From the IMG/VR virus record IMGVR_UViG_3300031707_000034, positions 1-46,001 of that record: DNA of 46,001 nt; one strand, given 5' to 3'. The position numbers were made by a program, and so were the translations under genes. The stretch is from a virus. Positions 1,106-27,837 of this stretch are shown one piece after another (positions within the stretch are counted from its first letter, which is position 1; the number at the start of each line of letters is the position of its first letter). Below the pieces are notes generated by a model. The model made no database searches and was not told the origin of the DNA. It worked only from the letters and a program-made list of their open reading frames with translations.

Positions 1106-1109
1106 CTGA

Positions 1110-1182: not shown

Positions 1183-1184
1183 CC

Positions 1185-1274: not shown

Positions 1275-1292
1275 AAACTTTGGAGGTAACTT

Positions 1293-1684: not shown

Positions 1685-1686
1685 CA

Positions 1687-1825: not shown

Positions 1826-1830
1826 CATAT

Positions 1831-1902: not shown

Positions 1903-1905
1903 CCT

Positions 1906-2013
1906 TATAAGCAAGTAGTTCTCTAGGTAGTGTGCGGCGACACCGATACAGAGTCGGGTATCCCTGAGGGCATAAGAGATAGGCACTGAAAACCAGCAAC
2001 TCTCTTGCTTATA
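1906..2013 (+). ncRNA. Structured spacer F
   Basis: A 108-nt spacer closed by a perfect 10-bp helix, TATAAGCAAG (1906-1915) with CTTGCTTATA (2004-2013). Further pairing AGTT/AACT lies inside, along with hairpins GTGT/ACAC and a GGGTATCCC palindrome. It begins 4 nt after tRNA-Asp and ends 4 nt before tRNA-Thr. No ORF or tRNA. Function unknown. Confidence 0.55.
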
Positions 2014-2016
2014 TAT

Positions 2017-2089
2017 GCCGAAGAAGTTCATGTGGCAGAACGCTTTCTTGGTAAGAAAGATGCTGTGAGTCCGACTCTCACCTTTGGCT
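2017..2089 (+). tRNA. tRNA-Thr (GGT)
   Basis: Acceptor GCCGAAG/CTTTGGC, anticodon stem CTTTC/GAAAG with anticodon GGT at 2050-2052, and T-arm GTGAG/CTCAC with loop TCCGACT. Confidence 0.95.
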
Positions 2090-2093
2090 CTAA

Positions 2094-2167
2094 CCTAGCA
2101 TGGCACGACAGGTCAAGGCAACATTCTTATAAAGTGTGATATGTAGGTCCGAATCCTACTGCTAGGA
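2094..2167 (+). tRNA. tRNA-Ile (TAT)
   Basis: Acceptor CCTAGCA/TGCTAGG, anticodon stem ACATT/AGTGT with anticodon TAT at 2128-2130, and T-arm GTAGG/CCTAC with loop TCCGAAT. It should decode ATA directly, without the lysidine-modified CAT tRNA used by most bacteria. ATA is very frequent in the genes of this window. Confidence 0.93.
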
Positions 2168-2227
2168 CTTGACTTTATTTACAATTAGTGCTATTATGAT
2201 GTAGATAAGAATGATTATATATACCAT
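2162..2227 (-). CDS. Possible 21-residue membrane peptide
   Basis: On the minus strand, TAGGAGGTG stands five bases before an ATG that opens a 21-codon frame made almost entirely of Ile, Leu, Val, Tyr and Ala and ending in NKVKS. That is the composition of one transmembrane helix with a charged tail. The last codons and the stop lie antisense to tRNA-Ile. The ribosome site is among the best in the region, but the frame is very short and overlaps a plus-strand promoter, so it may be chance. Confidence 0.35.
   Translation of the reverse strand: MVYIIILIYIIIALIVNKVKS
2169..2197 (+). promoter_or_regulatory. Sigma70-type promoter inside the tRNA cluster
   Basis: TTGACT (2169-2174), 17-bp spacer, TATTAT (2192-2197): one mismatch in each box. 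It lies in the 128-nt gap between tRNA-Ile and tRNA-Arg and points rightward, so it could drive the second half of the cluster. The rest of the gap to 2295 shows no further structure I can support. Confidence 0.65.
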
Positions 2228-2295
2228 ATCCACCTCCTATATTAAGTATAACATAGAGACTCATGGGTATGGTATAGGGAAAGTATAGTATCTTT

Positions 2296-2368
2296 GAGAC
2301 CGTAGCTCAACAGACGGAGCAGTAGCCTTCTAAGCTAATGGTTGAGGGTGCAAATCCCTCCGGTCCCA
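2296..2368 (+). tRNA. tRNA-Arg (TCT)
   Basis: Acceptor GAGACCG/CGGTCCC (one A-C mismatch), D-stem GCTC/GAGC, anticodon TCT at 2329-2331, and T-arm GAGGG/CCCTC with loop TGCAAAT. It reads AGA, the dominant arginine codon here. Confidence 0.93.
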
Positions 2369-2566
2369 CTAAGCATCGGCTGTGAAACTGGAGCAATGGG
2401 AACGACTGAGAATACTTGGAACTTTGAGTTCCATCATCGAAAGATGCTGTGGCAAAGTCTCTCCGAAAGGGTTGCCATCCAGTCAACAAGCATTGGTTCG
2501 TGTGATTAGAAGCGCACACTCATTTGCAGGAAAAGGTAAGCCGAGACGGAAGGTGTAACCGTATAT
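2369..2566 (+). ncRNA. Structured spacer G, several hairpins
   Basis: A 198-nt spacer. A tRNA-sized unit is closed by AGCATC (2372-2377) / GATGCT (2443-2448) and contains a GGAAC/GTTCC hairpin. It is followed by TGGCAA/TTGCCA (2450-2477) capped by a GAAA tetraloop, then GTGTG/CACAC (2500-2519), then ACGG/CCGT (2546-2562). No single helix closes the whole spacer. No ORF or tRNA was recognised. Confidence 0.45.
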
Positions 2567-2638
2567 AGGGGATTGGTGAAGTGGTATTCACGACTGCCTC
2601 TGGAGCAGTAGACAGGAGTCCGATTCTCTTATCCCCCG
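2567..2638 (+). tRNA. tRNA-Gln (CTG)
   Basis: Acceptor AGGGGAT/ATCCCCC with the first pair mismatched, D-stem GTGAA/TTCAC, anticodon stem ACTGC/GCAGT with anticodon CTG at 2600-2602, and T-arm AGGAG/CTCTT with loop TCCGATT. Confidence 0.92.
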
Positions 2639-2643
2639 CCTAT

Positions 2644-2728
2644 GGAGTAGTGGCATAACGGTAGTGCAGAGGTTTGCTAAACCTTCCATCCCTAAAAAGG
2701 TGTCCGAGTTCGAGTCTCGGCTTCTCCG
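2644..2728 (+). tRNA. tRNA-Ser (GCT)
   Basis: Acceptor GGAGTAG/CTTCTCC with one mismatch, anticodon GCT at 2676-2678, a long class II variable arm, and T-arm CCGAG/CTCGG with loop TTCGAGT. It reads AGC/AGT and complements the TGA serine tRNA. Confidence 0.95.
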
Positions 2729-2731
2729 CTC

Positions 2732-2760
2732 TTGACAAATAAATAGTAAGGTTGTATAAT
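2732..2760 (+). promoter_or_regulatory. Perfect-consensus sigma70 promoter
   Basis: TTGACA (2732-2737), exactly 17 bp, TATAAT (2755-2760): both boxes match the bacterial housekeeping consensus fully. Transcription should start near 2767 and run through tRNA-Cys, -Val, -Lys and -Phe, and possibly into the protein genes from 3136. Confidence 0.9.
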
Positions 2761-2763
2761 GAT

Positions 2764-2788
2764 GTCGCTGTCTCGAAAACAGCAAGAC
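2764..2788 (+). other. 5' hairpin resembling an anticodon arm
   Basis: Immediately after the promoter, GTC GCTGT / ACAGC AA GAC forms an 8-bp helix with a two-base bulge and a seven-base loop CTCGAAA. The loop has the layout of an anticodon loop (it would read CGA), but no D-arm or T-arm surrounds it. It would sit at the very 5' end of the transcript, where it could protect or mark it. Confidence 0.5.
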
Positions 2789-2799
2789 CCGCCTTAAAT

Positions 2800-2872
2800 G
2801 ACTCCTTACCCGTCCGGCTGATGGGGTTCCTCTGCAAAAGGAAATAGGAGGGATCAGCACCCTCAGGAGTCT
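2800..2872 (+). tRNA. tRNA-Cys (GCA)
   Basis: Perfect acceptor GACTCCT/AGGAGTC, D-stem CCC/GGG, anticodon stem TTCCT/AGGAA with anticodon GCA at 2834-2836, and T-arm GAGGG/CCCTC with loop ATCAGCA as in tRNA-Asp. Confidence 0.93.
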
Positions 2873-2875
2873 CAT

Positions 2876-2947
2876 GCCCGACTCGTATAACGGTCAGTAC
2901 ACTTCTCCTACACAGAAGGAATCAGCGTTCGAGCCGCTGGTGGGGCA
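2876..2947 (+). tRNA. tRNA-Val (TAC)
   Basis: Acceptor GCCCGAC/GTGGGGC with one G-G mismatch, anticodon stem CTTCT/AGAAG with anticodon TAC at 2909-2911, and T-arm CAGCG/CGCTG with loop TTCGAGC. Confidence 0.94.
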
Positions 2948-2952
2948 CTTAT

Positions 2953-3025
2953 GGGCTTATAACACAAAGGACAAGTGTAGCAGACTCTTAATCTGCTAAT
3001 CTGGGTTCGAGTCCCAGTAGGCTCA
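2953..3025 (+). tRNA. tRNA-Lys (CTT)
   Basis: Acceptor GGGCTTA/TAGGCTC with wobbles, anticodon stem GCAGA/TCTGC with anticodon CTT at 2987-2989, and T-arm CTGGG/CCCAG with loop TTCGAGT. It reads AAG only. Confidence 0.95.
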
Positions 3026-3031
3026 CTAAAT

Positions 3032-3988: not shown

Positions 3989-4166
3989 TGGTTGCTTTGA
4001 TTATGTTTGGATAGGATTTCAAAGATTCTTTAATTGTGATTTCTGTAAGGCTACTTATAATGTAGCGGGAGAATCCATGAAAAGAGTAAAGGATATTACG
4101 CTAAAGATAAATGTAAATGGAAATGAGGTTGTAGACAAGGTGACATATTATGGAGAAGCTGATTAA
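3963..4166 (+). CDS. Small zinc-ribbon protein
   Basis: 67 residues with CPVCNGCF (5-12) and a second pair in CDFCKA (25-30), together making a treble-clef or ribbon zinc site, then a polar C-terminal half. It is translationally coupled, overlapping both neighbours. No enzyme motif is visible. Likely nucleic-acid binding; precise role unknown. Confidence 0.65.
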   Translation: MKLKCPVCNGCFDYVWIGFQRFFNCDFCKATYNVAGESMKRVKDITLKINVNGNEVVDKVTYYGEAD

Positions 4167-4530
4167 AAGAGGATTTTTTAGATTAGCTAGAAACACCCTG
4201 CCCTATTCTGATTGTAAGATTAGGGTTGGTGCTGTGATCTCTAGGAAGTCTCCTATTTCCGTTGGATTCAACGTAACTAAGACACACCCTAGTTTTTGTA
4301 ACCCAGATGTAAGTTGTACAATGAGTATTCATGCAGAGATGAACGCTCTTATGAGAGCTCACCTCTCTGTTAATGGTTGTGATATTTATATCTATAGGGA
4401 ACTAGCAGATGGTACTCCAGGTATTGCCAAGCCATGCAAAGTGTGTTATGATACCCTTAAGTTAAAGGGTATAAAGAAAATATACTACACTATAGGAGAA
4501 TACCCATACTGGAAGTGTGAGAGACTATGA
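4150..4530 (+). CDS. Deoxycytidylate (dCMP/CMP) deaminase family protein
   Basis: 126 residues of the cytidine/deoxycytidylate deaminase fold. The zinc site is complete: HAEMNAL (His61, Glu63 as proton shuttle) and PCKVC (Cys96, Cys99). Phage enzymes of this family convert dCMP to dUMP and feed thymidylate synthesis. The length is short but normal for the core domain. The substrate could also be a modified or free nucleoside. Its stop overlaps the following ATG (ATGA). It belongs with the nearby nucleotidase as nucleotide-pool functions. Confidence 0.85.
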   Translation: MEKLIKRGFFRLARNTLPYSDCKIRVGAVISRKSPISVGFNVTKTHPSFCNPDVSCTMSIHAEMNALMRAHLSVNGCDIYIYRELADGTPGIAKPCKVCYDTLKLKGIKKIYYTIGEYPYWKCERL

Positions 4531-5928: not shown

Positions 5929-6471
5929 ATGAATATAATCTTTGATCTTGATGGTGTACTTTATCCCTGGCATGATGCGGTGTATACATATCTACGAGTA
6001 GAAGGAGGGGACTCTTTGCCCTCATTCAACGTACTTTGGAAAGACCCATACAAATATATTAAAAAAGAAAAGTGGGACTTTATAGCCACAATTCCACTTC
6101 TTTATTCCACTATATTACCTAAGAAAGAAATTGTTGCCATGCTCAAGGAACTGGACGCAATGGGTCATACTTTATATTATGTTACCAACAGAGAACAAGA
6201 CCTAGAAAGAGTTACTAGGAAATATCTTAATGACTATAATTTTCCTCAGGAGTTCAATCTCATACATACCAAAGACAAGGACAAAATAATCAGAACGCTG
6301 GAGATAGATGTGATTGTGGAGGATAAGGTAGAAAATCTTGAAAAGTTTTCTGCCCTTTGTAAGACCATAGGAATAGAGCACCCCTGGAATGAGGAAAAGA
6401 GAGGTTACTTAGAATCTCTAGGAATAATATTTATTCCCTCAGCAGAGTATGTACAGGAGATTTTGTGCTGA
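5929..6471 (+). CDS. HAD-family 5'(3')-deoxyribonucleotidase-like phosphatase
   Basis: 180 residues opening with FDLDGVLYPW (5-14), the HAD motif I with nucleophile Asp6 and acid Asp8. YVTNRE supplies the motif II Thr, and VIVEDKVEN supplies the C-terminal acidic motif. The size and motif pattern match the 5'-nucleotidase, deoxy type of HAD phosphatase, which dephosphorylates (deoxy)nucleoside monophosphates. With the dCMP deaminase it suggests adjustment of nucleotide pools. ATG 5929 follows AAAGGAG. The 3' end overlaps the next gene by seven bases. Confidence 0.8.
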   Translation: MNIIFDLDGVLYPWHDAVYTYLRVEGGDSLPSFNVLWKDPYKYIKKEKWDFIATIPLLYSTILPKKEIVAMLKELDAMGHTLYYVTNREQDLERVTRKYLNDYNFPQEFNLIHTKDKDKIIRTLEIDVIVEDKVENLEKFSALCKTIGIEHPWNEEKRGYLESLGIIFIPSAEYVQEILC

Positions 6472-6671
6472 TTTGTTTCTATTGTGGTAAAGAAATATCC
6501 ATGAAAAATAATGAGCATCATATGGTAGCTATAGATAATCCATATATAAACTTATTCTTCTGTAGTCCTGAATGTTGGCTAACAGTTAATCCAGACCTAG
6601 AACAATATCTTGTAGAAAATACAGAAAAGGTGTATACTTATATGAGAAAATCAAAAGAAAAAGGAAAATAA
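6465..6671 (+). CDS. Small Cys/His zinc-binding protein
   Basis: 68 residues with CFYCGKEI near the N-terminus (residues 4-11), HH at about 18-19 and CSPECW (33-38), giving a plausible zinc site. A charged C-terminal tail follows. It overlaps both neighbours (its last base is the first of the next ATG). Function unknown. Confidence 0.6.
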   Translation: MLICFYCGKEISMKNNEHHMVAIDNPYINLFFCSPECWLTVNPDLEQYLVENTEKVYTYMRKSKEKGK

Positions 6672-7405
6672 TGGCAGATAATGACGAAAAACCGAATGTA
6701 TGGTATGAGCATGGCATCAAGCATGTAGTACCTAATAAGAAGAAGCTGAAAAATCTTAAGCAGAATAGGGACCTGACCGATGAGGAGTTTGAATTAGCCT
6801 ACGAAGAGAAGTACCTGAGCATAGAGCAATCAGCCAACTTTGAAAAAAGAATTATCGAGAAACTTCAGGAGTTTGAAACAGAGTATGACCTATCGGATAT
6901 GAAAGTAAACGATAGGGCATCTTTAAGAGCCCTGGTTCAGGCGGTAATAGCACTAGAGGACTATGAGCAAGTTTTATTCCAACTGAGGTCAGGCAAAGAA
7001 GGTATAAATGCGGATAACGTCTATATCTTTGAGAAGGTAAATAAGGTTCTATCCGACCTGCGTGAGGATATAAATAAGTTACAGGCCGAATTAAAGATTT
7101 CCAGGAAAAGTAGGAAGTCAGATTCAGATGCATCTTTTATAGACTATCTGGAGAGCATGAAGGTAAAAGCAAAAAAGTTCTATGAGTCAAAGATGTCATA
7201 TCTTTATTGCCCTAAGTGTAAAACCCTTTTGGGAACTCTCTGGTCTCTTTATCCAGAGGATAAAAGAAATAAGATAAGACTGGTCTGTTGTCGTGAGTTA
7301 GATGATGGTATAGTTTGTGATGGAGAGGTAGTTATAGGAACAAAAGAACTACTGGCTAATAGAGGTCACAGCGAAGAAAACCTAGTGCCTATAAGGATGG
7401 AATAA
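6671..7405 (+). CDS. Candidate small terminase subunit with C-terminal zinc ribbon
   Basis: 244 residues. The central part is helical and charged (LREDINKLQAELKISRKSRKSDSD, about 131-154), the type of long helix seen in small terminase or P27-like DNA-packaging proteins. The C-terminus has CPKCKTLLG (about 180-188) and CCREL...VC, a zinc ribbon. In tailed phages the gene before the large terminase is often the small subunit. Here it is separated from that gene by ten sugar and acyl genes, so the assignment rests on helix pattern and rough position only. It could instead be another DNA-binding regulator. Confidence 0.4.
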   Translation: MADNDEKPNVWYEHGIKHVVPNKKKLKNLKQNRDLTDEEFELAYEEKYLSIEQSANFEKRIIEKLQEFETEYDLSDMKVNDRASLRALVQAVIALEDYEQVLFQLRSGKEGINADNVYIFEKVNKVLSDLREDINKLQAELKISRKSRKSDSDASFIDYLESMKVKAKKFYESKMSYLYCPKCKTLLGTLWSLYPEDKRNKIRLVCCRELDDGIVCDGEVVIGTKELLANRGHSEENLVPIRME

Positions 7406-8130
7406 TGCCAGATACTTTAGCAGTTTTATTCACATATGATAGATATGAGCTACTTAAGGATTCTCTTAAGACCATGTTTAGTTCTCCCGGCCTTCCCCTT
7501 AGACTATGGGTAGTGGATAACGGCTCTATTTTTGAGAATAAGAGCACCAACGGGATAAAACAATTAGACCTTATTATAGATTATTATAAACAAGGGAAGA
7601 TAGAAAGCGTGATACTTAATCATAAAAATTTTGGGTGCAACCACGCCGTAAATCAGTTGATGGCACAGGCTAAACTAACCTCTATAAACCCACCAATATC
7701 CACACCAGACTTTATATTCCAAACCAACGATGATATGATATATGAGGATAACTGGTTACTGGAAACCTACAATACCTATATGGCATTGGAAGCCCCAGAG
7801 AAAGTTACCATAGTCTCACCCTTTCACTGTAAGCATTTAAATGGTCATATATCTCATGGCATGGATACCATAAAGACTACAGAAATAAACGGCACTAAAT
7901 ATGAGATAAAAAAGAATGTATCTGGTAACACATGGTTTATGCGTGGTTCTACCTGGATACATTTTTTTGATTGGTGGCCTGTGAATGACCCTACCGAAGG
8001 TGGAGATTGGGAGAAACTATACAAGAATTCTAACATGAATTTCTTTTGTGCTGTAACTCCAAAGGAAATGGTACACCATGCACCAGAGTCACAGGGCACT
8101 GGAAAGTTCAATAGGTTAGGACACTGGTAA
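7405..8130 (+). CDS. Family 2-type glycosyltransferase
   Basis: 241 residues with a GT-A fold pattern: LAVLFTYDRYELLKDSLKTM at the N-terminus (nucleotide-binding first strand), LWVVDNGS (34-41), and FIFQTNDDMIYEDNW, where NDD is the DxD-type metal and sugar-nucleotide motif. The C-terminal half has GGDWEK, common in GT2 acceptor regions. It should move a sugar from a nucleotide donor to a glycan or protein. It is soluble, with no membrane helices. It is the first gene of the cassette, with its ATG overlapping the preceding stop. Confidence 0.85.
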   Translation: MPDTLAVLFTYDRYELLKDSLKTMFSSPGLPLRLWVVDNGSIFENKSTNGIKQLDLIIDYYKQGKIESVILNHKNFGCNHAVNQLMAQAKLTSINPPISTPDFIFQTNDDMIYEDNWLLETYNTYMALEAPEKVTIVSPFHCKHLNGHISHGMDTIKTTEINGTKYEIKKNVSGNTWFMRGSTWIHFFDWWPVNDPTEGGDWEKLYKNSNMNFFCAVTPKEMVHHAPESQGTGKFNRLGHW

Positions 8131-8131
8131 T

Positions 8132-8653
8132 ATGAATATAGAAAAAGCTAGGTTAATTGGTGGCTGGCTTCCAGACATTGAATTGGAATGGTTAGCCAGT
8201 ACAGCAGAAAAAAGCCATGCTATCCTTGAACTAGGCTCTTTCTTGGGAAGATCTACGAGAGCCCTGTGTGATAATACTAGGGGAGCTGTTGTAACAGTGG
8301 ATTTATGGGAACAAACAGATGGAGGTCTTATAGCTGATTTTCCAACAGTAGAAAATCAATTCATAGAAAATCTAAAAGACCACTTTATGACCCATAAGTT
8401 ATTTTATTATAAATGTACCACCGATATAGCAATAGATATACTGAGAAAAGATTGCAGGAAGTTTGATTTTATCTTTATAGATGCTGACCACAGATATGAA
8501 CAGGTAAAGAAGGATATTCTTGGTTGTCGAGAGCTACTAACGGATGGTGGAATAATCAGCGGTCATGATTATAATTGGGAAGGAGTTAAGAAAGCAGTGG
8601 ATGAAATTTTTCCTACGTTTAATTTACATAATTATATATGGTGGGCACAATGA
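8132..8653 (+). CDS. Class I SAM-dependent methyltransferase
   Basis: 173 residues with motif I ILELGSFLGRST (31-42), VVTVDLWEQ (acidic residue of motif II) and FIFIDADHRYEQVKKDI plus GGIISGHDY, matching the Methyltransf_24 type of class I enzymes common in polysaccharide and antibiotic clusters. Inside this cassette the likely target is a sugar or its acyl group. It starts one base after the glycosyltransferase stop and ends in an ATGA overlap with the epimerase. Confidence 0.8.
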   Translation: MNIEKARLIGGWLPDIELEWLASTAEKSHAILELGSFLGRSTRALCDNTRGAVVTVDLWEQTDGGLIADFPTVENQFIENLKDHFMTHKLFYYKCTTDIAIDILRKDCRKFDFIFIDADHRYEQVKKDILGCRELLTDGGIISGHDYNWEGVKKAVDEIFPTFNLHNYIWWAQ

Positions 8654-9630
8654 GTAATATACTTCTAACAGGAGCAGGTGGTTACTTGGGAGCAGTACTT
8701 CAGCAAGTAAATTTTCCACTGAGGCACACAATCTACCCTCTTGATCTAGGGATATTTACCAGTCCTTTTCCATATCCATATAACAAGATAGATTTAAAGA
8801 CAGGAACATTTAAGCGAATTATGTTCCCAGAAGATGCCAGTATAGATACCGTAGTTCATCTAGCTGGTATTTCCAACGACCCCTCTGGAGAGATAGACCC
8901 GGCCTTTACCCGTAGAAATAACATAGATGCCTCTAAGAGGCTCATAGACTTTGCACTAGCCGCAGGAGTAAAAAAGTTTATTTTTGCCAGTTCTGCCAGT
9001 GTATACGGGGAGAATGATGCCCTAGTTACTGAAGAGAGCCCACTAAATCCTAAGACACATTATGCAGAATCTAAAGCAGTGGTTGAAGAATATTTACTTG
9101 GGGTAAAAGAACTTAATCCAACCATATTTAGATTTGGTACATTGTTTGGTGTCTCACCTAAGATGAGGTTTGATATAGCAATTAATCTTATGGTAAAGGA
9201 TGGACTAACCACTAAAAAAATAAATGTATATGGTGGCGGGGAACAGTATAGGCCTTTTCTTCACGTTGAGGATGCTGCCGCAGCCCTATTGTTAATTGCA
9301 GGACAAATGCCAACCTCAGTATATTTCTCAGGACAAATATATAATCTATGCTCTTCTAACATAAGGATAGGTTCTTTGGCAGAAGTAGTAGCAAACCTAA
9401 CAGAGTCAGAAGTTATTTTCAATCCATATGATCATCCAGATATTAGGAACTATAGGATGGATTGCAGTAAGTTTCTAAACCGTTTTGGGATGGAGTTTAC
9501 TAGCATAGTTAGTGGTGTACTATCCCTGAAAAAATGGGTAGAATATAACACGCTTGTATTAGATAATAGAGACTATTATACTATTGAGGCGTGGAAGAAG
9601 TATATGAAACATGAAAGTACCATTCTCTAA
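8650..9630 (+). CDS. NAD-dependent sugar epimerase/dehydratase
   Basis: 326 residues of the extended short-chain dehydrogenase family. ILLTGAGGYLGAVL gives the TGxxGxxG Rossmann motif, FIFASSASVYG carries the catalytic Ser/Thr region, and YAESKAVVEEYLL supplies YxxxK. Such enzymes epimerise or dehydrate nucleotide sugars, the usual first step to amino- or deoxy-sugars. I choose ATG 8650 rather than the Met four codons upstream because it forms an ATGA overlap with the methyltransferase stop and places the Rossmann strand right at the N-terminus. Confidence 0.88.
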   Translation: MSNILLTGAGGYLGAVLQQVNFPLRHTIYPLDLGIFTSPFPYPYNKIDLKTGTFKRIMFPEDASIDTVVHLAGISNDPSGEIDPAFTRRNNIDASKRLIDFALAAGVKKFIFASSASVYGENDALVTEESPLNPKTHYAESKAVVEEYLLGVKELNPTIFRFGTLFGVSPKMRFDIAINLMVKDGLTTKKINVYGGGEQYRPFLHVEDAAAALLLIAGQMPTSVYFSGQIYNLCSSNIRIGSLAEVVANLTESEVIFNPYDHPDIRNYRMDCSKFLNRFGMEFTSIVSGVLSLKKWVEYNTLVLDNRDYYTIEAWKKYMKHESTIL

Positions 9631-10699
9631 ACCAAAAATAACAGATGAGGAAATATCGTCCGTAGTAGAAACCCTCTTAAGTGGGTGGCTTACCATAGGT
9701 CCAAAGGTCAAGGAATTTGAGACAGCACTATCAAAATACACTGGTTCTAAGAATACAGTTGCCTTAGATTCTTGTACATCAGCTCTTACCTTATCTGCTG
9801 TCGGGATTAAGGTAAAAAAGAAAAAGGCAGTTATACCTGCCCTAACTTTTATAGCCACAGCTAACTCTTTCTATCATGCTGGCTATGATATAGAATTTTG
9901 TGATGTAGGTATGGATGGAAACATAGACCCAAATTGTTTGCATGATGGTAATGATGTGGTGGTTCCAGTGCATTTTGCAGGACAGGTTTGTGATATAAAA
10001 AGAATAGCAATAAAAACAATCTCACTTATAGAGGATGCTGCCCACGCCATAGGTGCTACTTATGATGATGTTCATGTAGGTCTGTCATTATATTCAGATG
10101 GGGCTTGCTTTAGTTTCTATCCTACAAAGAACATGACCACCATAGAGGGTGGTGCATTTATTTCCAGACATGCACAGCTCACTGAGTTTGTTAGGAAACT
10201 ATCTTTGCATGGTTTAGATTCATCCCATATAAATAGGTATGAAAGGTCAAGTATTGCAAAACCTACAATAGCATTTCCAGGATTTAAAGCCAATATGACT
10301 GATGTAGAGGCGTCTATTGGTATAGTCCAACTCAGTAAACTGAACTCTTTTATTACTAGGAGGAAAGAATTAGTTAGAAATTATTTTAGTGAGTTGGGTA
10401 ACGAGATACATCCCCTGGCCCTAAATGGAAGAGATCATGTATGGCATATGTTTATTATTTTGGTAGATAACAGAGATGAATTTGTAACCAAACTGAGAGA
10501 AAAAGAGATATATGCGGGTATACACTATTCCCCTATTATACCTGCCCATCCATTCTACTCAGTTCTTACTGGCTATAGAAGGGGACAGTTTCCAATAGCA
10601 GAGTATATAGCAGACCATTGTGTTAGCCTACCACTATTCAATGGCATGACAGATGATGAACAGGATTATGTTATAAGGAATGTAAAGGAGTTACTATGA
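9611..10699 (+). CDS. DegT/DnrJ/EryC1/StrS-type sugar aminotransferase
   Basis: 362 residues, full length for the family. Visible marks are VPFSKPKITDEEI at the start, PALTFIATANS, the EDAAHA motif (141-146) that contacts the cofactor, and SFYPTKNMTTIEGG with PLP-binding Lys173. These enzymes convert keto-sugar nucleotides to amino-sugars. Downstream of an epimerase/dehydratase and upstream of a GNAT acyltransferase, it fits a route such as keto-sugar to amino-sugar to N-acyl-sugar. It overlaps both neighbours. Confidence 0.92.
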   Translation: MKVPFSKPKITDEEISSVVETLLSGWLTIGPKVKEFETALSKYTGSKNTVALDSCTSALTLSAVGIKVKKKKAVIPALTFIATANSFYHAGYDIEFCDVGMDGNIDPNCLHDGNDVVVPVHFAGQVCDIKRIAIKTISLIEDAAHAIGATYDDVHVGLSLYSDGACFSFYPTKNMTTIEGGAFISRHAQLTEFVRKLSLHGLDSSHINRYERSSIAKPTIAFPGFKANMTDVEASIGIVQLSKLNSFITRRKELVRNYFSELGNEIHPLALNGRDHVWHMFIILVDNRDEFVTKLREKEIYAGIHYSPIIPAHPFYSVLTGYRRGQFPIAEYIADHCVSLPLFNGMTDDEQDYVIRNVKELL

Positions 10700-11574
10700 A
10701 AATTTATGCAGAGGTTTTACCAACCACGCTAGGTAGGGTTGTATATAGAATAAATAAAAATTTAAAGCAATTCGCACCCCCTTGGGCAGAGTTTACAAAA
10801 GACCCAACACAAGCGGATGTTCAGATACTAGATGTTATTGGTAAGGGGAGTCTGGAATTTATAAAGAATGATAATTTGATAATGTTCCAGCATTGTTACC
10901 TTACTACGGAAACATCAGACCCTGCCTTTTGGTATCCAATATTCAGTAGTGCTAAGTTGGTAGCTTCTTATATAGACATACCTAAACTACTTGGAAGAGA
11001 CGATTTCAACTTCCTAAGAACTCCCTGGGGCGTAGACCCAAATTCATTCTTTTCTCTTGGACCAGTACATAAACACTTTGATGTACTTTCAACAGGCTAT
11101 GTATCAAGTACCGAGAGCATACAAGAGGCGTATAATGCTGTGGTTAGACTTGGGGGACATATGGTAAATATAGGTCATAATTTTAAGTTCGGAAGAGGGT
11201 TTTCTCATGCAGAGAACATATCAGACGCAGAACTTAGGAAACTGTATGAAAGGTCTAGATATGTTATAGGTCTTAGAAAGATGGAGGGGTATGAACTCCC
11301 CATCCTAGAGGGTTTACTATGTGGAACAAGAGGAATTTGCTATAACTCTGACCACTATACACATTGGTTTGGTGACCTGGTAGAATACATTGAAGAAGAT
11401 CCATTGTCTTTGTGTGGAGTAGAATATTCTAAGGTAGTGGAAGATCAGATATATAACATAATATCAGAACCATACAGAGAAGTAACCAAAGAAGAAAAGG
11501 AATTAGTAATTAATAAATTCTCTTGGGAAAATATTTACAAGAGAATTTGGAAGGAGCTGGAAAAAATCCTATGA
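10696..11574 (+). CDS. Glycosyltransferase, GT4/GT-B-like
   Basis: 292 residues. The C-terminal half has GYELPILEGLLCGTRGICYN (about 197-216), the glutamate-rich EX7E-like region of GT4 retaining glycosyltransferases that grips the nucleotide sugar. The N-terminal Rossmann half is short and diverged (MKIYAEVLPTTLGRVVYRIN). It lacks a signal or membrane helix. It is the second transfer enzyme of the cassette, suggesting a glycan of at least two sugars. The ATG overlaps the aminotransferase stop by four bases. Confidence 0.75.
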   Translation: MKIYAEVLPTTLGRVVYRINKNLKQFAPPWAEFTKDPTQADVQILDVIGKGSLEFIKNDNLIMFQHCYLTTETSDPAFWYPIFSSAKLVASYIDIPKLLGRDDFNFLRTPWGVDPNSFFSLGPVHKHFDVLSTGYVSSTESIQEAYNAVVRLGGHMVNIGHNFKFGRGFSHAENISDAELRKLYERSRYVIGLRKMEGYELPILEGLLCGTRGICYNSDHYTHWFGDLVEYIEEDPLSLCGVEYSKVVEDQIYNIISEPYREVTKEEKELVINKFSWENIYKRIWKELEKIL

Positions 11575-12269
11575 TAATCTATAAAGAATGGGACTCTAAA
11601 ATACTTGGAAAAAGGGTGGGAGAGGTTGATATTGAGTCTGGAAATCTAATAGAAGGTTTACAAGAATATGATTATGTTACAGTTAAAATACCAACCTACT
11701 CAATAGATGTTATACGCATGTTAGAGGATGATGGTTTTAGAGTATGTAATACCCTCTTGACGTTTAGGAGAAAGCCGGCCCATCAGATTGTATCTCCAGA
11801 AATAGTAATAAGACTTGCCACTAAGAACGATACCAAAGAATTACAGGAGATAGGAAGAAATGCTTTTTATCTGGATAGATACCATACCGACCCATATCTA
11901 ACAAGAAAAGAAGCAGATAGCATATATGATTCTTGGATAGAAAATGAGATTAATGGTGAGCATGGGGATGCTGTCTTTGTAGCCACAGTAAATAATGACA
12001 TACTTGGTTTTATATGCTGTAGAATATCAGGGGGTAACGGCTACATAGATTTAACGGCTACTACAATGAAAGCTTTTTTACAGTATAAAATAAAACACTT
12101 CGCAGGTTTTTTACTGAGGGTTGCTACTAACTTCTTTTATTCTAGGAGCATATACAGCATCTCAACTGCAACTCAGTCTACAAATATTCCATCAATAAAT
12201 TCTTTGCTGGAAAATTACTTTGAAATAACAGAATCATATCTTATTTTATCGTGGAGAAACAAAAAATAA
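11571..12269 (+). CDS. GNAT-family amino-sugar N-acyltransferase, WecD-like
   Basis: About 232 residues. The layout (IYKEWDSKILGKRVGEVDI at the N-terminus, a second domain IVIRLATKNDTKELQEIGR, DAVFVATVNNDILGFICCR, and a late helix with STATQSTNIPSINSLLE) resembles WecD/RffC, which acylates dTDP-4-amino-4,6-dideoxy-sugars. I place the start at ATG 11571 in the ATGA overlap with the previous stop, not 16 codons upstream. Next to an aminotransferase it would N-acylate the new amino-sugar. The adjacent acyl carrier protein suggests the donor may be acyl-ACP instead of acetyl-CoA. Confidence 0.8.
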   Translation: MIIYKEWDSKILGKRVGEVDIESGNLIEGLQEYDYVTVKIPTYSIDVIRMLEDDGFRVCNTLLTFRRKPAHQIVSPEIVIRLATKNDTKELQEIGRNAFYLDRYHTDPYLTRKEADSIYDSWIENEINGEHGDAVFVATVNNDILGFICCRISGGNGYIDLTATTMKAFLQYKIKHFAGFLLRVATNFFYSRSIYSISTATQSTNIPSINSLLENYFEITESYLILSWRNKK

Positions 12270-12539
12270 ATGAATGTAAGAACAGCAGTACTAGAGTATA
12301 TAAAAGATAACCCAATCTGGTCTGGGATTGATATAGATAAGGTATGCTTTTATGGACAGGGTGGTATCTTTGATTCTATTGACCTAGTATCTTTTATAAT
12401 AGAACTGGAACAAAGACTATCCATTTCGTTGAGCACAGATAAAGCGTTCTCCCATAGAAACAGCCCCTTTCTATCATTAGAGAGACTAGAACAATTTATA
12501 AAGGAGATACAAGATGAGAATAGTAATAACAGGAACTAG
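12270..12539 (+). CDS. Acyl carrier protein
   Basis: 89 residues with the four-helix carrier protein pattern and GGIFDSIDLVSFIIELEQ, where Ser36 in the DSI motif would take the 4'-phosphopantetheine arm. Acidic helix 2 follows. Carrier proteins are rare in phages. Position between an acyltransferase and a ketoreductase plus AMP-ligase suggests it holds a hydroxyacyl group during its synthesis. No phosphopantetheinyl transferase is seen in the window, so a host enzyme would have to activate it. It starts directly after the GNAT stop, and its 3' end overlaps the next gene by 26 bases. Confidence 0.88.
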   Translation: MNVRTAVLEYIKDNPIWSGIDIDKVCFYGQGGIFDSIDLVSFIIELEQRLSISLSTDKAFSHRNSPFLSLERLEQFIKEIQDENSNNRN

Positions 12540-13203
12540 CCGAGGTATAGGCAAGTATTTAGCCAGCTACTATACCCAAAAGGGAGATACTGTTTACGGA
12601 TGTAGTAGAGGAGAGCCAGATATAGTAGCCCCGTTTGTAGACCCCTTCTATTATCACCACTCTTGCTTTGATGCAACCAATGAAGAGGATGTAAAGTGCT
12701 TTGCTAGTATGCTAAAGAGCATTGATGTTCTTATAAATAATGCTGGCATATCCTCTATGAACCATTCCCTCCTTACACCAATAAGTACGGTTAGAAAAAT
12801 AATAGATACAAACTTTATAGCTACTTTTACATTCTCACAATATGTATCTAAGCTAATGAACGATGGTGGTAGAATAGTAAACCTTTCGTCTGCAGCCTAC
12901 CCAATGCTACTGGAGGGAGAGGCGGTATATGCTGCCTCAAAAGCTGCGGTAGTTACCTTGACCCAGATAATGGCAAAGGAACTTGCTCATAGGAATATAA
13001 CTGTAAATGCTCTTGGTCCTAATCCAATAAAGACTGACCTTATAAAAGGAGTTCCGGAAAAAAAGATGAAGGAGTTAATACAAAGGCAGGCCATAAAGAG
13101 ATATGGTACATTTGAAGATATAACTAATGTTATAGACTTCTTTATTAAACCTGAAAGTAACTTTATAACAGGGCAGGTTATTTATCTTGGAGGGGTTTCG
13201 TGA
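12514..13203 (+). CDS. Short-chain dehydrogenase, FabG-like 3-oxoacyl-ACP reductase
   Basis: 229 residues of classical SDR type: TGTSRGIGK (6-14) nucleotide-binding motif, NNAG (75-78), Ser near 124-125, and Tyr139/Lys143 (YAASK) as the catalytic triad. FabG enzymes reduce 3-oxoacyl-ACP to 3-hydroxyacyl-ACP with NADPH. The overlap with the carrier protein gene makes a carrier-bound substrate likely. It could alternatively act on a sugar, but the neighbours favour the acyl role. Confidence 0.85.
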   Translation: MRIVITGTSRGIGKYLASYYTQKGDTVYGCSRGEPDIVAPFVDPFYYHHSCFDATNEEDVKCFASMLKSIDVLINNAGISSMNHSLLTPISTVRKIIDTNFIATFTFSQYVSKLMNDGGRIVNLSSAAYPMLLEGEAVYAASKAAVVTLTQIMAKELAHRNITVNALGPNPIKTDLIKGVPEKKMKELIQRQAIKRYGTFEDITNVIDFFIKPESNFITGQVIYLGGVS

Positions 13204-14276
13204 CCGAGTTATTTAAAGACTTTGATGATAGAAAGGATTTCATTTGTGCCATAGTGGGTAAGCACTCTATGACATATGAACAGGTGTGTGAAGAAATTCT
13301 TATCCCCATGATTTCTTTAGATGGAGATAGGGAAGTATTTACATTCTCTACCTCAGGTTCCTCAGGCACTCCAAAAATAGTTTACCACGATGCTAAGAAA
13401 TTCTTAGAAAAATATAGGGTAGACAGGCCTGCTTATACCACCTTAGTTACTATGAAGCCCAAACATATGGGGGGGATTGATGCAATTCTAAAGACCATGT
13501 ATAGTGGTGGAAAAATTATCTTCCCAGAAAATCTACAACCAGATACTATCTTTACTGCCATAGATTTACGTAATGTTCAGGTAGTGGTGGCATCACCGTC
13601 TCTTCTAAAGCTATTAGCCATAAGTGGACTTTCAACCAAGTTTGATTTAAGTTCTGTAGAAGTAGTTGCATATGGCTCGGAAAAGATGCCCGAAACCTTT
13701 CTTATAAAAGTTCAGGAGATGTTCAAGAACGCTAAACTAAAGCAGACCTATGGCATAACCGAAATAGGCACACTTAGAACACACTCTAAAGGTTCTGACT
13801 CTACTTGGATGAAGCTGGTTGGAAATGAACAGACAAGGGTTGTGGATGGGGTTCTCCAGATAAGAACAGATAGTTCTTTTATTAGATATGGAGAAGGTCC
13901 TGGTCCTTTTATAGAAGATGGTTGGTATGTTACCGGAGATCTTGTAGAGCAGGACGGAGAGTATATCAGGATACTAGGCAGAGAATCTGACATAATTAAT
14001 GTTGGTGGAGAGAAGGTATACCCACCTGAAATAGAAGATGTAATATCAGAAGTTCCCGAAGTAGTGGATGTTTTAGTTACTGGGGAGAAGAATGAGCTTT
14101 TAGGACAGGTAGTTGTTGCTACTGTTTACACAACCTCAAAAGATACTGCCGATCTAAAATACTCCATTAAAGACCACTGCAAAGAAAGACTAGAGAAATA
14201 TAAAATCCCAATAAAAATTTATTTTTCGGATGAACCACTAATAACGGATAGAGCGAAGAAGAGGAGAAAAAGATGA
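13200..14276 (+). CDS. Short AMP-forming acyl ligase (ANL superfamily)
   Basis: 358 residues beginning at GTG 13200 (GTGA overlap with the FabG stop). It carries FTFSTSGSSGTPKIVYH (ATP-grasping P-loop A3), QTYGITEIGT (A5), GWYVTGDLVEQDG with GRESDIINVGGEKVYPPEIE (A7-A8), and a C-terminal RAKKRRKR where the catalytic Lys of A10 would lie. ANL enzymes usually have about 500 residues with 150 or more before the P-loop. Here fewer than 60 precede it, so the N-terminal subdomain is largely missing. It likely activates a small acid and loads it on the carrier protein. Confidence 0.85.
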   Translation: MTELFKDFDDRKDFICAIVGKHSMTYEQVCEEILIPMISLDGDREVFTFSTSGSSGTPKIVYHDAKKFLEKYRVDRPAYTTLVTMKPKHMGGIDAILKTMYSGGKIIFPENLQPDTIFTAIDLRNVQVVVASPSLLKLLAISGLSTKFDLSSVEVVAYGSEKMPETFLIKVQEMFKNAKLKQTYGITEIGTLRTHSKGSDSTWMKLVGNEQTRVVDGVLQIRTDSSFIRYGEGPGPFIEDGWYVTGDLVEQDGEYIRILGRESDIINVGGEKVYPPEIEDVISEVPEVVDVLVTGEKNELLGQVVVATVYTTSKDTADLKYSIKDHCKERLEKYKIPIKIYFSDEPLITDRAKKRRKR

Positions 14277-14791
14277 AATTAGAACTAGGATCTGGGTATC
14301 ACCCAATAGACGGATTTACTCATGTAGACATAAATCCTAACTGCCCACACTTAGAGTATGTATCAAGCGTAGATAATTTACCCATGTTTGAAACAAACTC
14401 TGCAGAGGTGATGAGAGCATGTGATGTATTAGAGCACTTTTCATACCGAGATACTTTGCGTGTGCTATCAGAGTGGTATAGAATTCTAGCTCCAGGAGGT
14501 AGCATATACATACAATGTCCAAACGCTAAACTACTTGCCGAAAGATGGCTAAAGGGGGACCTACCAAAAGTGGATGGTATGCCCATAGATTTCTCCGCTT
14601 CTTATTGGATTATGGGAGGACAGGAAGATAATACCTTTGCAAAGAGGGGGGATGATTGGAGGTGGAACGCACACTATACCTTATTCTCTCCAGAATCATT
14701 ATTGTTCTATTTAGAGAAGGTAGGGTTTGTGGACATAATTATAGAATCTGACGGAGGCTCCAACTTAGTTTGTTGGGCACATAAAAAATAA
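14273..14791 (+). CDS. Class I SAM-dependent methyltransferase
   Basis: 172 residues with LELGSGYHPIDGFTHVDIN (motif I and acidic loop, 3-21), ACDVLEHFSYRDTLRVLSEWYRIL (post-motif helix) and PGGSIYIQCPN, the pattern of Methyltransf_11-type enzymes. It overlaps the ligase stop by four bases and ends directly before the terminase ATG. It is the last cassette member; target probably the glycan or its acyl group. Confidence 0.82.
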   Translation: MKLELGSGYHPIDGFTHVDINPNCPHLEYVSSVDNLPMFETNSAEVMRACDVLEHFSYRDTLRVLSEWYRILAPGGSIYIQCPNAKLLAERWLKGDLPKVDGMPIDFSASYWIMGGQEDNTFAKRGDDWRWNAHYTLFSPESLLFYLEKVGFVDIIIESDGGSNLVCWAHKK

Positions 14792-17368
14792 ATGCCTATA
14801 GTAGAAAAAGCAACCCCAGAAGATTTAATACTATATGAGATATTCAAAAACCCCGTGTTATTTGGGGAATTTGTAATGAACATAGATAGCATACCTGGAG
14901 ATCCTGAGTTTGAACTAACACCTTATCAGAGAGAATTCATGCTGGACTTCAGTAACTACGTGTCTCTGTGCTGTGCCCGTGCAGTAGGAAAGACGGTAGC
15001 TATCTCCATACTTTTATTATGGGCCTTGATATTTAATATCTTTCCAAATGATTACATAGTTTACTCAGTACCTAATAAGGTTCACCTAGAGCCAGTATTC
15101 ACCACATTATCCAGATTACTACGCTCTAATTCAATTCTAAAACAATTCATAGAGCCAAAGGGAGGTATAAACAACTCAGAGTTTTCTTTGAAGCTACTAA
15201 ACAATACCAAACTTATGTGTCGTATCGCAGGTCAGTCTGGTACAGGTGCAAATGTTATTGGTCTACACAGTCCATATGTTTTACTGGATGAGGCAGGTTA
15301 CTACCCAGTAGCCACATTCAACGAACTACAGCCTGTTATAAACACATGGGAACAGGGTTTTAAGTTACTTGTATCTGGAGTACCTACTGGGGTAAGAGAG
15401 AATAACGTACTCTATCACTGTGACAGGGAAAATACTAACTATACCAAGCATAGGGTTTCAGCTTTTCAAAACCCTAGATTCTTTGAGAAGGATAAGGAAA
15501 GAGCTATAGAGCAGTATGGTGGTGAAGAATCTGACGAGTATATTCACTCAGTACTGGGTCAGCATGGGAAACCAATCTTCTCATTGTTCGACAGAAGTAC
15601 CTTCCAAATCCAGCCTTATCCCATCTATAAACTTACTATAGATGGGATAACGGAGTCCGAAAATCTAGCTGGCATACTGGCAAAAGTAGCTATGATACCA
15701 CCCCTGAAGGATGATAGAGTGGACAGAATATTTGGTATAGATTTGGGCTACTGCTATTCAGACGATACTGAGGTACTAACTAAGAGAGGGTGGTTGAAAC
15801 ATCAAGACATGACTACGGAGGATATAGTTGCCTGTTTTGATACAGAAACATCCAAAATAAAGTGGGATCATCCTATATATATATGGGAACAGGAGTATAA
15901 AGGAGAAATGTTAGAGATCTCAGGAAAGAGTACAAATTTTATGGTGTCTCCAAAACACTCTGTATGGGTAAATAAATATAGAGAATATAAACCAACAAAG
16001 TATGAAAAACTGATGGCTAAGGATTTACTGCACCTAAAAAATAATAGATTTAGTGTAAAAATTTCAGCCCCCTCCGAAAACCAAATCGGTCCTATAACCT
16101 TTGATGTACCCAGTTATATTATAAATAAAAAAGAAAAAAAACCCACAAATATAAGTATGTCTATTTGGCTACAGTTTTTAGCTTGGTTTATTTCCGAAGG
16201 GTCTGCAACAGCAAATGCAAGTTGGGAAGTAAACATTAGTCAGAGCTTGGGAAAATATTCCAAGTTAATTGATGAAATGTTTAAACACCTTCCCTATACA
16301 GTAACAAGAAAAGAGTTTACTACCCAACGGGGTAAACAACAAATTAATTGGAGAATAACTTGTAAAGAGTTGTGTTTGTGGCTTAGAGAAAATTGTGGGA
16401 TTCATTCTGAAAATAAAAGAATCCCCAACTTTGTGTTTGATTGTTCTACTGAGGATCAGGAGTTATTTTTAAGAACATTGCTTATGGGAGATGGTTCAAG
16501 AGTAAATTCTAGCAGATCACCCCAATATAATAGTCAATCAGAAGAATTAGTAGATCAATTTCAACAAATGGCCATATCTTTAGGATATTCTTCCACTAAA
16601 GGTTACTATAAAAAGGGAAATATGTATAGGGCCACTCTTATGGATAAACAGGAAAATCAGTTGTACAGGGATAGTAGTATTAGGAGTGTAGACTACAGTG
16701 GAAAAATATACTGCCTAAAAACAAGAACTGGTTTCTACGTTACTAGAAGAAAGGGTAAAACAGTAATTGCTGGAAACACAGAACCAACGGCGATATTTAT
16801 TATGTATTTGGACGACATAGACAGACTGAAATTTCATGCAAAAATACAATTATCCAAAGTATCTTATCCGGTTCAAGAGAAGATAATAGATCTTTTGGAC
16901 TCCAGATTCAACCCATCTATAATAGGAATAGATAAGGGAAGTTCAGGTATATCCGTTATACAGGATCTACTAGAACTTAAAGACTACCTACACAAAGATT
17001 TTAAAAAGAAAATAGTGCCGATTGATTTCTCATCTTCTATGATTCTAGGCCTTAGCACAGAGGGAGAGGAGATAAAATCAAAGACCAAACCATTTACCGT
17101 CTCTATTCTACAAGATTATACCAATAATGGAAGGATTGTATATACGACTACTGATATGGAAACTGTGGTAGAATTAGAAAGGATGACCTATACAAAGACG
17201 GTCAGTGGGGAGATAGCATACAGGACCCTTACAACTAAGGGAGGAAAGAGGGGAGAAGATCACTTTACTTCTGCTCTACTGTGTGCGGCTACCTCTTATT
17301 ACTTAATGAACGAGTTCTCCTTTTCAAGAAGAACCAAGAAAAAATTGCTAAGGTCGGGATGGCTATAA
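14792..17368 (+). CDS. terL: Large terminase subunit interrupted by an intein
   Basis: 858 residues, of which 516 form the terminase. Packaging ATPase: CARAVGKT (61-68, Walker A) and YVLLDEAGYY (162-171, Walker B with the catalytic Glu). Nuclease: GIDLGY joined to TEPTAIFI after splicing, giving the first RuvC-type acidic site, then IGIDKGSSG and GEDHFTSALL with the late acidic residue. Residues 321-662 are an in-frame intein (described separately) placed exactly in the first nuclease motif, so unspliced protein should lack nuclease activity. TerL cuts concatemers and pumps DNA into the prohead. It follows the methyltransferase directly and precedes the portal. Confidence 0.95.
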   Translation: MPIVEKATPEDLILYEIFKNPVLFGEFVMNIDSIPGDPEFELTPYQREFMLDFSNYVSLCCARAVGKTVAISILLLWALIFNIFPNDYIVYSVPNKVHLEPVFTTLSRLLRSNSILKQFIEPKGGINNSEFSLKLLNNTKLMCRIAGQSGTGANVIGLHSPYVLLDEAGYYPVATFNELQPVINTWEQGFKLLVSGVPTGVRENNVLYHCDRENTNYTKHRVSAFQNPRFFEKDKERAIEQYGGEESDEYIHSVLGQHGKPIFSLFDRSTFQIQPYPIYKLTIDGITESENLAGILAKVAMIPPLKDDRVDRIFGIDLGYCYSDDTEVLTKRGWLKHQDMTTEDIVACFDTETSKIKWDHPIYIWEQEYKGEMLEISGKSTNFMVSPKHSVWVNKYREYKPTKYEKLMAKDLLHLKNNRFSVKISAPSENQIGPITFDVPSYIINKKEKKPTNISMSIWLQFLAWFISEGSATANASWEVNISQSLGKYSKLIDEMFKHLPYTVTRKEFTTQRGKQQINWRITCKELCLWLRENCGIHSENKRIPNFVFDCSTEDQELFLRTLLMGDGSRVNSSRSPQYNSQSEELVDQFQQMAISLGYSSTKGYYKKGNMYRATLMDKQENQLYRDSSIRSVDYSGKIYCLKTRTGFYVTRRKGKTVIAGNTEPTAIFIMYLDDIDRLKFHAKIQLSKVSYPVQEKIIDLLDSRFNPSIIGIDKGSSGISVIQDLLELKDYLHKDFKKKIVPIDFSSSMILGLSTEGEEIKSKTKPFTVSILQDYTNNGRIVYTTTDMETVVELERMTYTKTVSGEIAYRTLTTKGGKRGEDHFTSALLCAATSYYLMNEFSFSRRTKKKLLRSGWL
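15752..16777 (+). mobile_element. Intein with LAGLIDADG-type homing endonuclease in terL
   Basis: 342 residues. Splicing marks: Cys1 in CYSDDTEVLTKRGW (block A), FMVSPKHSVWV (block B His), and IYCLKTRTGFYVTRR with final GKTVIAGN followed by Thr as +1 residue. The penultimate residue is Gly rather than the usual His, a variant known in some phage inteins. Two dodecapeptide-like motifs, FLAWFISEGS (462-471) and LRTLLMGDGS (560-569), spaced about 98 residues apart, indicate a DOD homing endonuclease. Removing it restores GIDLGY-TEPTAIF. Confidence 0.93.
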
Positions 17369-26634: not shown

Positions 26635-27837
26635 ATGATGAGCAAGGATAAAATTAAGGTTTTATGGATAAGTGATTTAGTCGTGCCAACGGGATTTGCC
26701 AGGGTATCACACTCTATTTTAGGACATCTTCCCAGAGAAAAATATGAGATAGTGGGACTTGGAGTTAACTATAGAGGAGACCCTCACGAACTCAAGTTTC
26801 CCGTATATCCAGCAATATTGGGTGGTGATATATATGGTTTTACTAGGCTTCCAGATGTATTGAAAGCACACTCAATAGATGTTATTTATATTCTAAATGA
26901 TATATGGATTATACATGAATATCTTAAGAGAATAAAAGAAATCTATAAGGAAGGAACTACAAGACCAAAGATAGTAATATATTTTCCTGTAGATGCCAGA
27001 CATCATTCACCCCTTTGGTATACAAATTTGGATATTGTAGATAGTGCTAATGTTTACACACAGTTTGGAAAGAAGGTATCTGAGGCAGTTTATGATGGTA
27101 AATTTAATATAATACCTCATGGGGTGGACAAACATTTATTTTCTCAGTTGTTCGAGAGACGGTCTCAGGCTAAAGAAGTACTGTATTCTAACACCTCAAA
27201 TAAGGATATTATTGGAGAGGACGCATTTATATTTCTAAATGCTAACAGGAACCAACCAAGAAAAAGATTGGAACTTACCATGCAAGGTTTCCGTTTATTC
27301 GCCGATGGAAAGCCAAATAGTGTTTCCCTGTATATGCATTGTGGTAACACCGATGCCAAGCACATAGAGGTAGCAGAATTGGCTAAAAGACTCGGTATTC
27401 AAACCAAGTTAATTATAACAGGAGCAGTAACAGGTATTCAACACGTTTCAGATAACAAACTAAACTTGATCTACAATGCAACCGATGTAGGACTAAACAC
27501 AGGTCTTGGAGAGGGCTGGGGATTACCTAATATGGAACATGCCCTTACCGGGGCCCCACAACTTGTACCAGACCATAGTGCCTGTGAAGAGATTTATAAA
27601 GATTGTGGTATCCTCATCCCCACCCATAGTGATCTAATGTTGGACGGTGGTGCAATGACAATTGGAAGATTAGTAAGTCCTGAAGCAGTGGCAGAAGCTA
27701 TGGAGAGGATTTATACGGATAAGGATTTGTATAAGGAATTGGCAAAGAAATCCGTAGAGAAATTTTCTTCTAAAGAATATGAATGGGGAACCATAGCAGC
27801 CACCTGGGACGGAATTTTTAACTCTGTTCTACAATAG
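26635..27837 (+). CDS. GT4-family glycosyltransferase inside the neck module
   Basis: 400 residues of GT-B type. VLWISDLVVPTGFARVSHSIL is the N-terminal acceptor-side Rossmann start, IIPHGVDKHLF the linker, FLNANRNQPRKRLELTMQGF the donor-side start, and NTGLGEGWGLPNMEHALTGAPQLVP the EX7E region. It is complete and soluble. It sits between connector and stopper genes rather than with the sugar cassette, so its natural target may be a virion protein made from the same transcript. Confident of the family; the acceptor is inferred. Confidence 0.88.
   Translation: MMSKDKIKVLWISDLVVPTGFARVSHSILGHLPREKYEIVGLGVNYRGDPHELKFPVYPAILGGDIYGFTRLPDVLKAHSIDVIYILNDIWIIHEYLKRIKEIYKEGTTRPKIVIYFPVDARHHSPLWYTNLDIVDSANVYTQFGKKVSEAVYDGKFNIIPHGVDKHLFSQLFERRSQAKEVLYSNTSNKDIIGEDAFIFLNANRNQPRKRLELTMQGFRLFADGKPNSVSLYMHCGNTDAKHIEVAELAKRLGIQTKLIITGAVTGIQHVSDNKLNLIYNATDVGLNTGLGEGWGLPNMEHALTGAPQLVPDHSACEEIYKDCGILIPTHSDLMLDGGAMTIGRLVSPEAVAEAMERIYTDKDLYKELAKKSVEKFSSKEYEWGTIAATWDGIFNSVLQ

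Follow-up and report, generated by a model that had tools for sequence, protein, structure and literature searches.

Gene content and integrity of the cassette

The virus record IMGVR_UViG_3300031707_000034 in IMG/VR is linear, and its 46,001 bases were analysed in full (the window). It contains, in order, a tRNA array, primase-like and nucleotide-metabolism genes, a cassette of ten putative sugar and acyl biosynthesis genes (7405-14791), TerL, portal, major-head-like, and further structural genes. The ten open reading frames (ORFs) had been described in an earlier note, made from the sequence alone, and all are present on one strand. Profile searches with Pfam, NCBIfam, and PHROG placed each of them, with at least marginal support, in the enzyme family named there (Table 1). 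The genes had been called all overlapping. This is so for seven of the nine internal junctions (4-26 bp), and at the other two the genes stand 0 or 1 bp apart. The run from the left neighbour, H6671, through the cassette into TerL is gapless and on one strand. One start was corrected. That of GNAT is most likely 11571 and not 11523, because it gives an ATGA overlap with the preceding gene and is identical in L001, a divergent viral contig of 9.8 kb.

Table 1. Features of the slot and its surroundings in the window
Feature	Positions	Strand	Assignment and evidence
H6671	6671..7405	+	conserved protein with Cys in its C-terminal part; resembles a small terminase in position only; borders slot on left; 52 viral loci have relatives
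GT2	7405..8130	+	family 2 glycosyltransferase; PF00535 Glycos_transf_2 E=6.4e-6
MT24	8132..8653	+	S-adenosylmethionine (SAM) methyltransferase; PF13578 Methyltransf_24 E=1.5e-16
EPI	8638..9630	+	NAD-dependent nucleotide-sugar epimerase/oxidoreductase; PF01370 Epimerase E=8e-35; PDB neighbours
DegT	9611..10699	+	DegT/ArnB/PseC-type sugar aminotransferase; PF01041 E=6e-84; PDB 8sng
GT1	10696..11574	+	GT-B-like glycosyltransferase; PHROG 2170 glycosyltransferase E=1e-11
GNAT	11571..12269	+	WecD-like amino-sugar N-acyltransferase; NCBIfam PRK10975 E=3.7e-22, below cut-off; PDB 2fs5
ACP	12270..12539	+	acyl carrier protein; PF00550 PP-binding E=0.001 (borderline)
SDR	12514..13203	+	FabG-like reductase; PF13561 E=8e-43
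LIG	13200..14276	+	short AMP-forming acyl ligase, 358 aa; PF00501 AMP-binding E=2.5e-18; PF13193 AMP-binding_C E=1.4e-11
MT11	14273..14791	+	SAM methyltransferase adjoining TerL; PF13489 Methyltransf_23 E=1.5e-7; PF08241
Exchangeable island as unit	7406..14787	.	blastn homology to L014/L017 breaks at both edges
TerL	14792..17368	+	intein-containing; right border of slot; PHROG 2; LAGLIDADG_3
GTb	26635..27837	+	second GT-B glycosyltransferase, within structural module; candidate partner; PHROG 2170 E=7e-34

L001 contains the end of GT2, followed by MT24, EPI, DegT, GT1, GNAT, ACP, SDR, LIG, MT11, TerL, and portal, so that the order of the window is kept. It starts inside GT2, and the left border of the slot is thus not visible there. 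Amino acid identity between the window and L001 is 64% for the GT2 C-terminus, 39% for MT24, 43% for EPI, 59% for DegT, 43% for GT1, 31% for GNAT, 39% for ACP, 53% for SDR, 40% for LIG, 71% for MT11, 60% for TerL, and 53% for portal. In every gene pair the divergence is greatest at third codon positions, which fits genes under protein-level selection. The cassette had been said to share the codon bias of the rest of the phage, and it does. Scored against the phage codon table, its ten genes give 0.954-1.044 nats per codon, within the span of the remaining phage genes (0.934-1.099). Values for bacterial homologues, 1.37-1.44 on the same table, fall outside it. The borders were also recovered in relatives. 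L002 matches window positions 14597-15751 at 97.7%, spanning the MT11-TerL border, and the left border is backed by L014 and L017. An assembly join or a chimera was named in the earlier note as what could undo its reading, and neither is supported. A join is ruled out by the independent linkage from the GT2 end to TerL in L001, of the MT11-TerL border in L002, and of the left border in L014 and L017. A host insertion or chimera is ruled out by the phage-like codon usage and the border matches in relatives. The cassette is real and under selection.

Loss of catalytic residues, another outcome raised there, is ruled out by alignments for DegT, EPI, SDR, ACP, and the LIG core motifs. EPI retains GGYLG, SSASVYG, and YAESK. 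Its SSASVYG is an epimerase-type motif, as opposed to the acid pair of 4,6-dehydratases, and a 4,6-dehydratase role was not adopted for EPI. DegT has its pyridoxal phosphate lysine, K173, in SFYPTKN, in common with L001. It belongs to the DegT family and its best curated models are PseC and ArnB. None of the NCBIfam equivalog cut-offs is reached, at 281.7 bits against 423.5 for PseC, 241 against 631 for ArnB, and 163.6 against 375 for WecE. An unannotated DegT in Pseudomonas phage Y5 is 34% identical to that of the window. The nearest solved relative of GNAT is WecD, a dTDP-fucosamine acetyltransferase (PDB 2fs5; profile search E=8e-10). Foldseek ranks the same structure first (E=1.8e-11, TM score about 0.5) for a predicted GNAT model of moderate confidence (pLDDT 67). 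Against the WecD equivalog model GNAT scores 79.3 bits, short of the cut-off of 219. By these scores it is a putative relative of WecD and not an equivalog. WecD acylates a 4-amino sugar nucleotide. ACP has a predicted phosphopantetheine serine, Ser36, in GGIFDS, and this serine is invariant across eight orthologues. SDR possesses S126, Y139, and K143, with YxxxK common to the window and L001, as it also is in EPI. In LIG the core motifs TSGSSGTPK, YGITE, and TGD and a C-terminal lysine are conserved, and the nucleotide-binding/adenylation motifs of ANL ligases are present.

Two further features lie outside the cassette. An array of 16 tRNA genes occupies the left end of the window (499-3026). 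The TerL intein has a LAGLIDADG-like domain at about 15751-16772, and the near-identical TerL of L002 is without an intein.

Exchange at the slot between H6671 and TerL

Profile scans returned 67 viral loci for TerL and 52 for H6671. When merged, these gave 39 distinct cases with both borders, window included. The slot is empty (2-5 bp) in three of them, 324 bp in one, and 1.5-9.6 kb in 35. The cassette described here is present in the window only among these cases. In L179, GT1 and MT11 alone are kept, at 47% and 70% identity. Between them lie 147 bp without a clear ORF (L179 11570-11716) in place of GNAT-ACP-SDR-LIG, and no remnant was recognised there.

L014 and L017 are close relatives of the window (TerL 87% and 84% identical, H6671 78% and 77%). 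Their blastn homology to the window, at 73-78% DNA identity, runs to base 7405 and resumes at 14788 in L014 and at 14785 in L017. No tblastx match was found between the islands of these two and the window cassette, whereas the more distant L001 does match. As close relatives hold unrelated islands and a distant one holds the same island, the cassette seems to be passed between phages as one block.

Among 133 ORFs from the slots of relatives, the leading Pfam families were methyltransferases, epimerases/dehydratases of sugars, GT2, DegT, ATP-grasp, radical-SAM/B12, and nucleotidyltransferases. By predicted gene content, the slot is one for glycan synthesis. Sugar cassettes are the rule at this position in the phage group. 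The cassette had been thought unusual for a phage. That does not hold for sugar cassettes at this slot and does hold for the ligase, which was found in two of the 34 group records searched (window and L001), though it is present in three other viral contigs. A search of 50,697 phage records gave no match to the GNAT or MT11 protein and a single match to TerL, at 24%.

Mobile elements were also observed. A GIY-YIG/NUMOD3 homing-endonuclease gene lies directly before TerL in L017 (9450-10007), and an intein-splicing domain lies within a GT2 gene in L005 (8578-10011). Homing elements at the slot border might contribute to the exchange of islands. Several islands share small ORFs of 76-86 aa that match DUF4254 weakly (L007 2411-2638, L017 2391-2648).

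Predicted product and its destination

The slot cargo of this phage probably makes an N-acyl amino-sugar that glycosyltransferases attach, most likely to a virion protein, and swapping of the slot would then change the coat glycan. An N-acylated amino-sugar pathway, as proposed in the earlier note, is still the best reading, with WecD nearest to GNAT by sequence and fold and a gene set resembling the viosamine island (PMC3927599). From the enzyme families the substrates, order of steps, acceptor, and biological role are inferred as follows. EPI and DegT would convert a host-supplied nucleotide 4-ketosugar to a 4-amino sugar nucleotide. LIG could activate an acid with ATP and load it on ACP, and SDR would reduce the acyl-ACP, most likely from the 3-keto to the 3-hydroxy form. 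The WecD-like GNAT could then transfer the acyl group onto the sugar amino group, and one or two methyltransferases may O-methylate the product. GT2, GT1, and possibly GTb would act in the cytoplasm to place the sugar on its acceptor, most likely a virion protein. Exchange of cargo between phages would alter the coat glycan. By analogy, a guess for the acid is one like 3-hydroxybutyrate. ACP has weak matches to D-alanyl carrier proteins, so an amino- or hydroxy-acid is also possible.

Several observations weigh against this pathway. The window showed no enzyme that would produce the nucleotide 4-ketosugar, neither a PF00483 nucleotidyltransferase nor a clear 4,6-dehydratase. The start of the pathway depends on the host or on genes outside this fragment. 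No ketosynthase is present among the ten genes, so SDR would have to work on a keto-acid that LIG has loaded or on some other substrate. No phosphopantetheinyl transferase was noticed in the window. With these gaps and an epimerase-type EPI motif, the description of a near-complete pathway was overstated. The Pfam similarity of ACP is borderline. The N-terminus of LIG is about 75 residues shorter than in L001 (5453-6730) and bacterial forms, the full ANL N-terminal subdomain is lacking, and the predicted model was poor (pLDDT 54, from three sequences) and was left unused. A short ligase is found in L228 as well (374 aa), and for this reason that of the window is not a lone oddity. GTb is present in the slot-empty phage L066 and so need not depend on the cassette.

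The destination of the sugar can be approached through membrane proteins. By a hydrophobic-segment count, which is a crude measure, none of the ten cassette proteins or 133 slot ORFs has at least four segments, and control membrane proteins have 4-12. One marginal membrane segment was seen, in LIG. Surface-polysaccharide loci normally need polytopic membrane proteins, and transfer in the cytoplasm to a virion protein or to DNA is therefore favoured. With positive controls, no flippase, polymerase, ligase, or ABC exporter of an O-antigen or capsule locus was found in the cassette. It is thus unlikely that the same N-acyl amino-sugar is placed on host lipopolysaccharide or capsule, where it would change the receptor or exclude competing phages. 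Such a role has been proposed for sugar clusters of cyanophages and jumbo phages, and jumbo-phage clusters with epimerases and glycosyltransferases have been interpreted in this way (PMC7824862). Homologues of the trio (ACP-SDR-LIG) sit in polysaccharide loci of bacteria next to MBOAT and an O-antigen-ligase-like protein, and host enzymes could still carry out export. The cassette and the 133 slot ORFs nevertheless contain no polytopic protein, and the slot stands against TerL within one continuous gene run. The earlier note had left the choice between virions and host receptors; these two points favour virions and do not prove them.

Hypermodification of phage DNA with the sugars, through the glycosyltransferases, is quite unlikely. 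Upstream of the cassette are genes resembling those for dCMP deaminase (4150-4530) and NT5C (5929-6471), which would suit it, but no thymidylate synthase/hydroxymethylase homologue was found in 18 group records, the longest of 78-96 kb. The product could also be a small metabolite, an acylated sugar, or the genes could serve one by one as auxiliary metabolic genes and not as one pathway. The islands are modular, with L179 retaining just GT1 and MT11, the partners of the trio vary between phages, and acpP-fabF-fabG of Roseobacter prophages was read as fatty-acid genes (PMC8224337). That ten genes, including two glycosyltransferases, stay together in the same order across a large divergence makes this very unlikely. 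Fatty-acid synthesis proper was ruled out, as no ketosynthase, dehydratase, or enoyl reductase lies beside the trio. Decoration of the virion fits the position against TerL and the retention of GTb in many relatives, where it is 36-59% identical. The window also encodes an 899-aa protein (23074-25773) with repeats around 'LQTSDT/LHTSDN' and no Pfam match. The repeats contain Ser/Thr and could be candidate glycan acceptors.

A wider proposal is made tentatively, as a possibility that falls somewhat short of probable. The slot may be a phage 'glycotype' locus, fixed in place and bordered by the terminase, at which whole sugar cassettes are exchanged like bacterial O-antigen loci. In this case the cassette includes an acyl-activation trio. 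Closely related virions would then differ in the acylated sugars of their coats. As a rule, sugar genes of phages are listed singly as accessory genes. In this uncultivated phage group, whole cassettes replace one another at a single site, and one of them brings its own steps of acid activation, carriage, and reduction. Should the product sit on virions, the slot would be a coat-switching locus akin to the O-antigen loci of bacteria, and this would bear on adsorption, immune recognition, and gene exchange. It also becomes testable which sugars are placed on which phage proteins.

The acyl-activation trio and known systems

ACP-SDR-LIG is, from its recurrence in predicted genes, a portable trio. 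The order was found in five viral contigs (window, L001, L226, L227, and L228) and in three Nitrospirota polysaccharide loci (L151, on Nitrospira metagenome-assembled contig JABFSU010000060.1, L173, and L176). The search for the gene set elsewhere that the earlier note had suggested thus gave the ten-gene order in L001 and the trio in the others. A scan of viral contigs with the single LIG sequence returned nothing, and a profile from a five-sequence alignment returned ten loci. L226, L227, and L228 are viral contigs of 180, 62, and 41 kb. Near the trio, L226 has a GNAT, L227 has DegT together with a hexapeptide transferase, and L228 has a GNAT, a cytidylyltransferase, and an Antibiotic_NAT domain; a terminase is also encoded in L228. 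Key residues are invariant in all eight loci aligned, the SDR serine being S or T. Trees of the trio give strong support for the grouping of the Nitrospirota genes only. One Nitrospira genome (G001, contigs C23 and C36) contains two copies of the trio at different loci.

The Nitrospirota genes are 55-58% (SDR) and 42-45% (LIG) identical to those of the window. Their loci have the trio in the same order as the phage but a longer ligase (457-461 aa), with polytopic membrane proteins among the neighbours in L151 and L173. The viral contigs L069-L071 resemble the phage in having a FabG-like SDR, ACP, GNAT, and DegT. In L069 a FabG-like SDR, ketosynthase III, MaoC-like and HAD proteins, ACP, GNAT, FdtA, and DegT occur together. 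Unlike the window, these contigs have a ketosynthase route and no AMP-ligase, and their SDR is 35-37% identical. No account of a terminase-side exchangeable glycan slot or of a phage AMP-ligase/ACP/FabG trio was found in the literature search, whose coverage was incomplete and leaves novelty unproven.

Sugar clusters and virion glycosylation in phages, like acyl-amino-sugar islands in bacteria, are systems of known kinds. To our knowledge, no acyl-sugar pathway is known for the virion glycosylation of mycobacteriophages. In these phages the capsid and tail tube are reported to be glycosylated by the phage (Freeman 2023, as cited in PMC12619734). The sugar clusters of cyanophages and jumbo phages also have their own epimerases and glycosyltransferases and are polymorphic between related phages (PMC7824862). 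An acyl carrier is not mentioned in that paper, and slot exchange beside TerL is not described there as far as searched.

The bacterial islands are comparable in their chemistry. In Pseudomonas syringae, VioA (DegT-type aminotransferase), VioB acyltransferase, VioS ketosynthase, VioR reductase, ACP, and a methyltransferase produce dTDP-N-(3-hydroxy-1-oxobutyl)-2-O-methylviosamine for flagellin, a conclusion drawn from mutants and mass spectrometry (PMC3927599). The viosamine island of P. syringae pv. tabaci and the flagellin glycosylation island of P. aeruginosa PAK share with the phage an aminotransferase, acyltransferase, ACP, 3-oxoacyl-ACP reductase, methyltransferase, and glycosyltransferase (PMC3927599). 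Where the viosamine island has the ketosynthase III VioS, the phage has an AMP-ligase; in addition its GNAT is of WecD type, a long VioT is missing, and the genes sit in a phage slot. The phage has a sugar aminotransferase (at family level, from DegT), ACP, and 3-oxoacyl-ACP reductase, lacks the 3-oxoacyl-ACP synthase III (VioS), and was not classed as a member. Flagellin glycosylation islands of enterobacteria hold ACP, a CaiC-type CoA ligase, and FabG (PMC4875605). These islands are bacterial and no product was determined in that study. Like the phage, they place ACP/CoA-ligase/FabG beside aminotransferases and methyltransferases, a likeness at the level of gene combination (PMC4875605).

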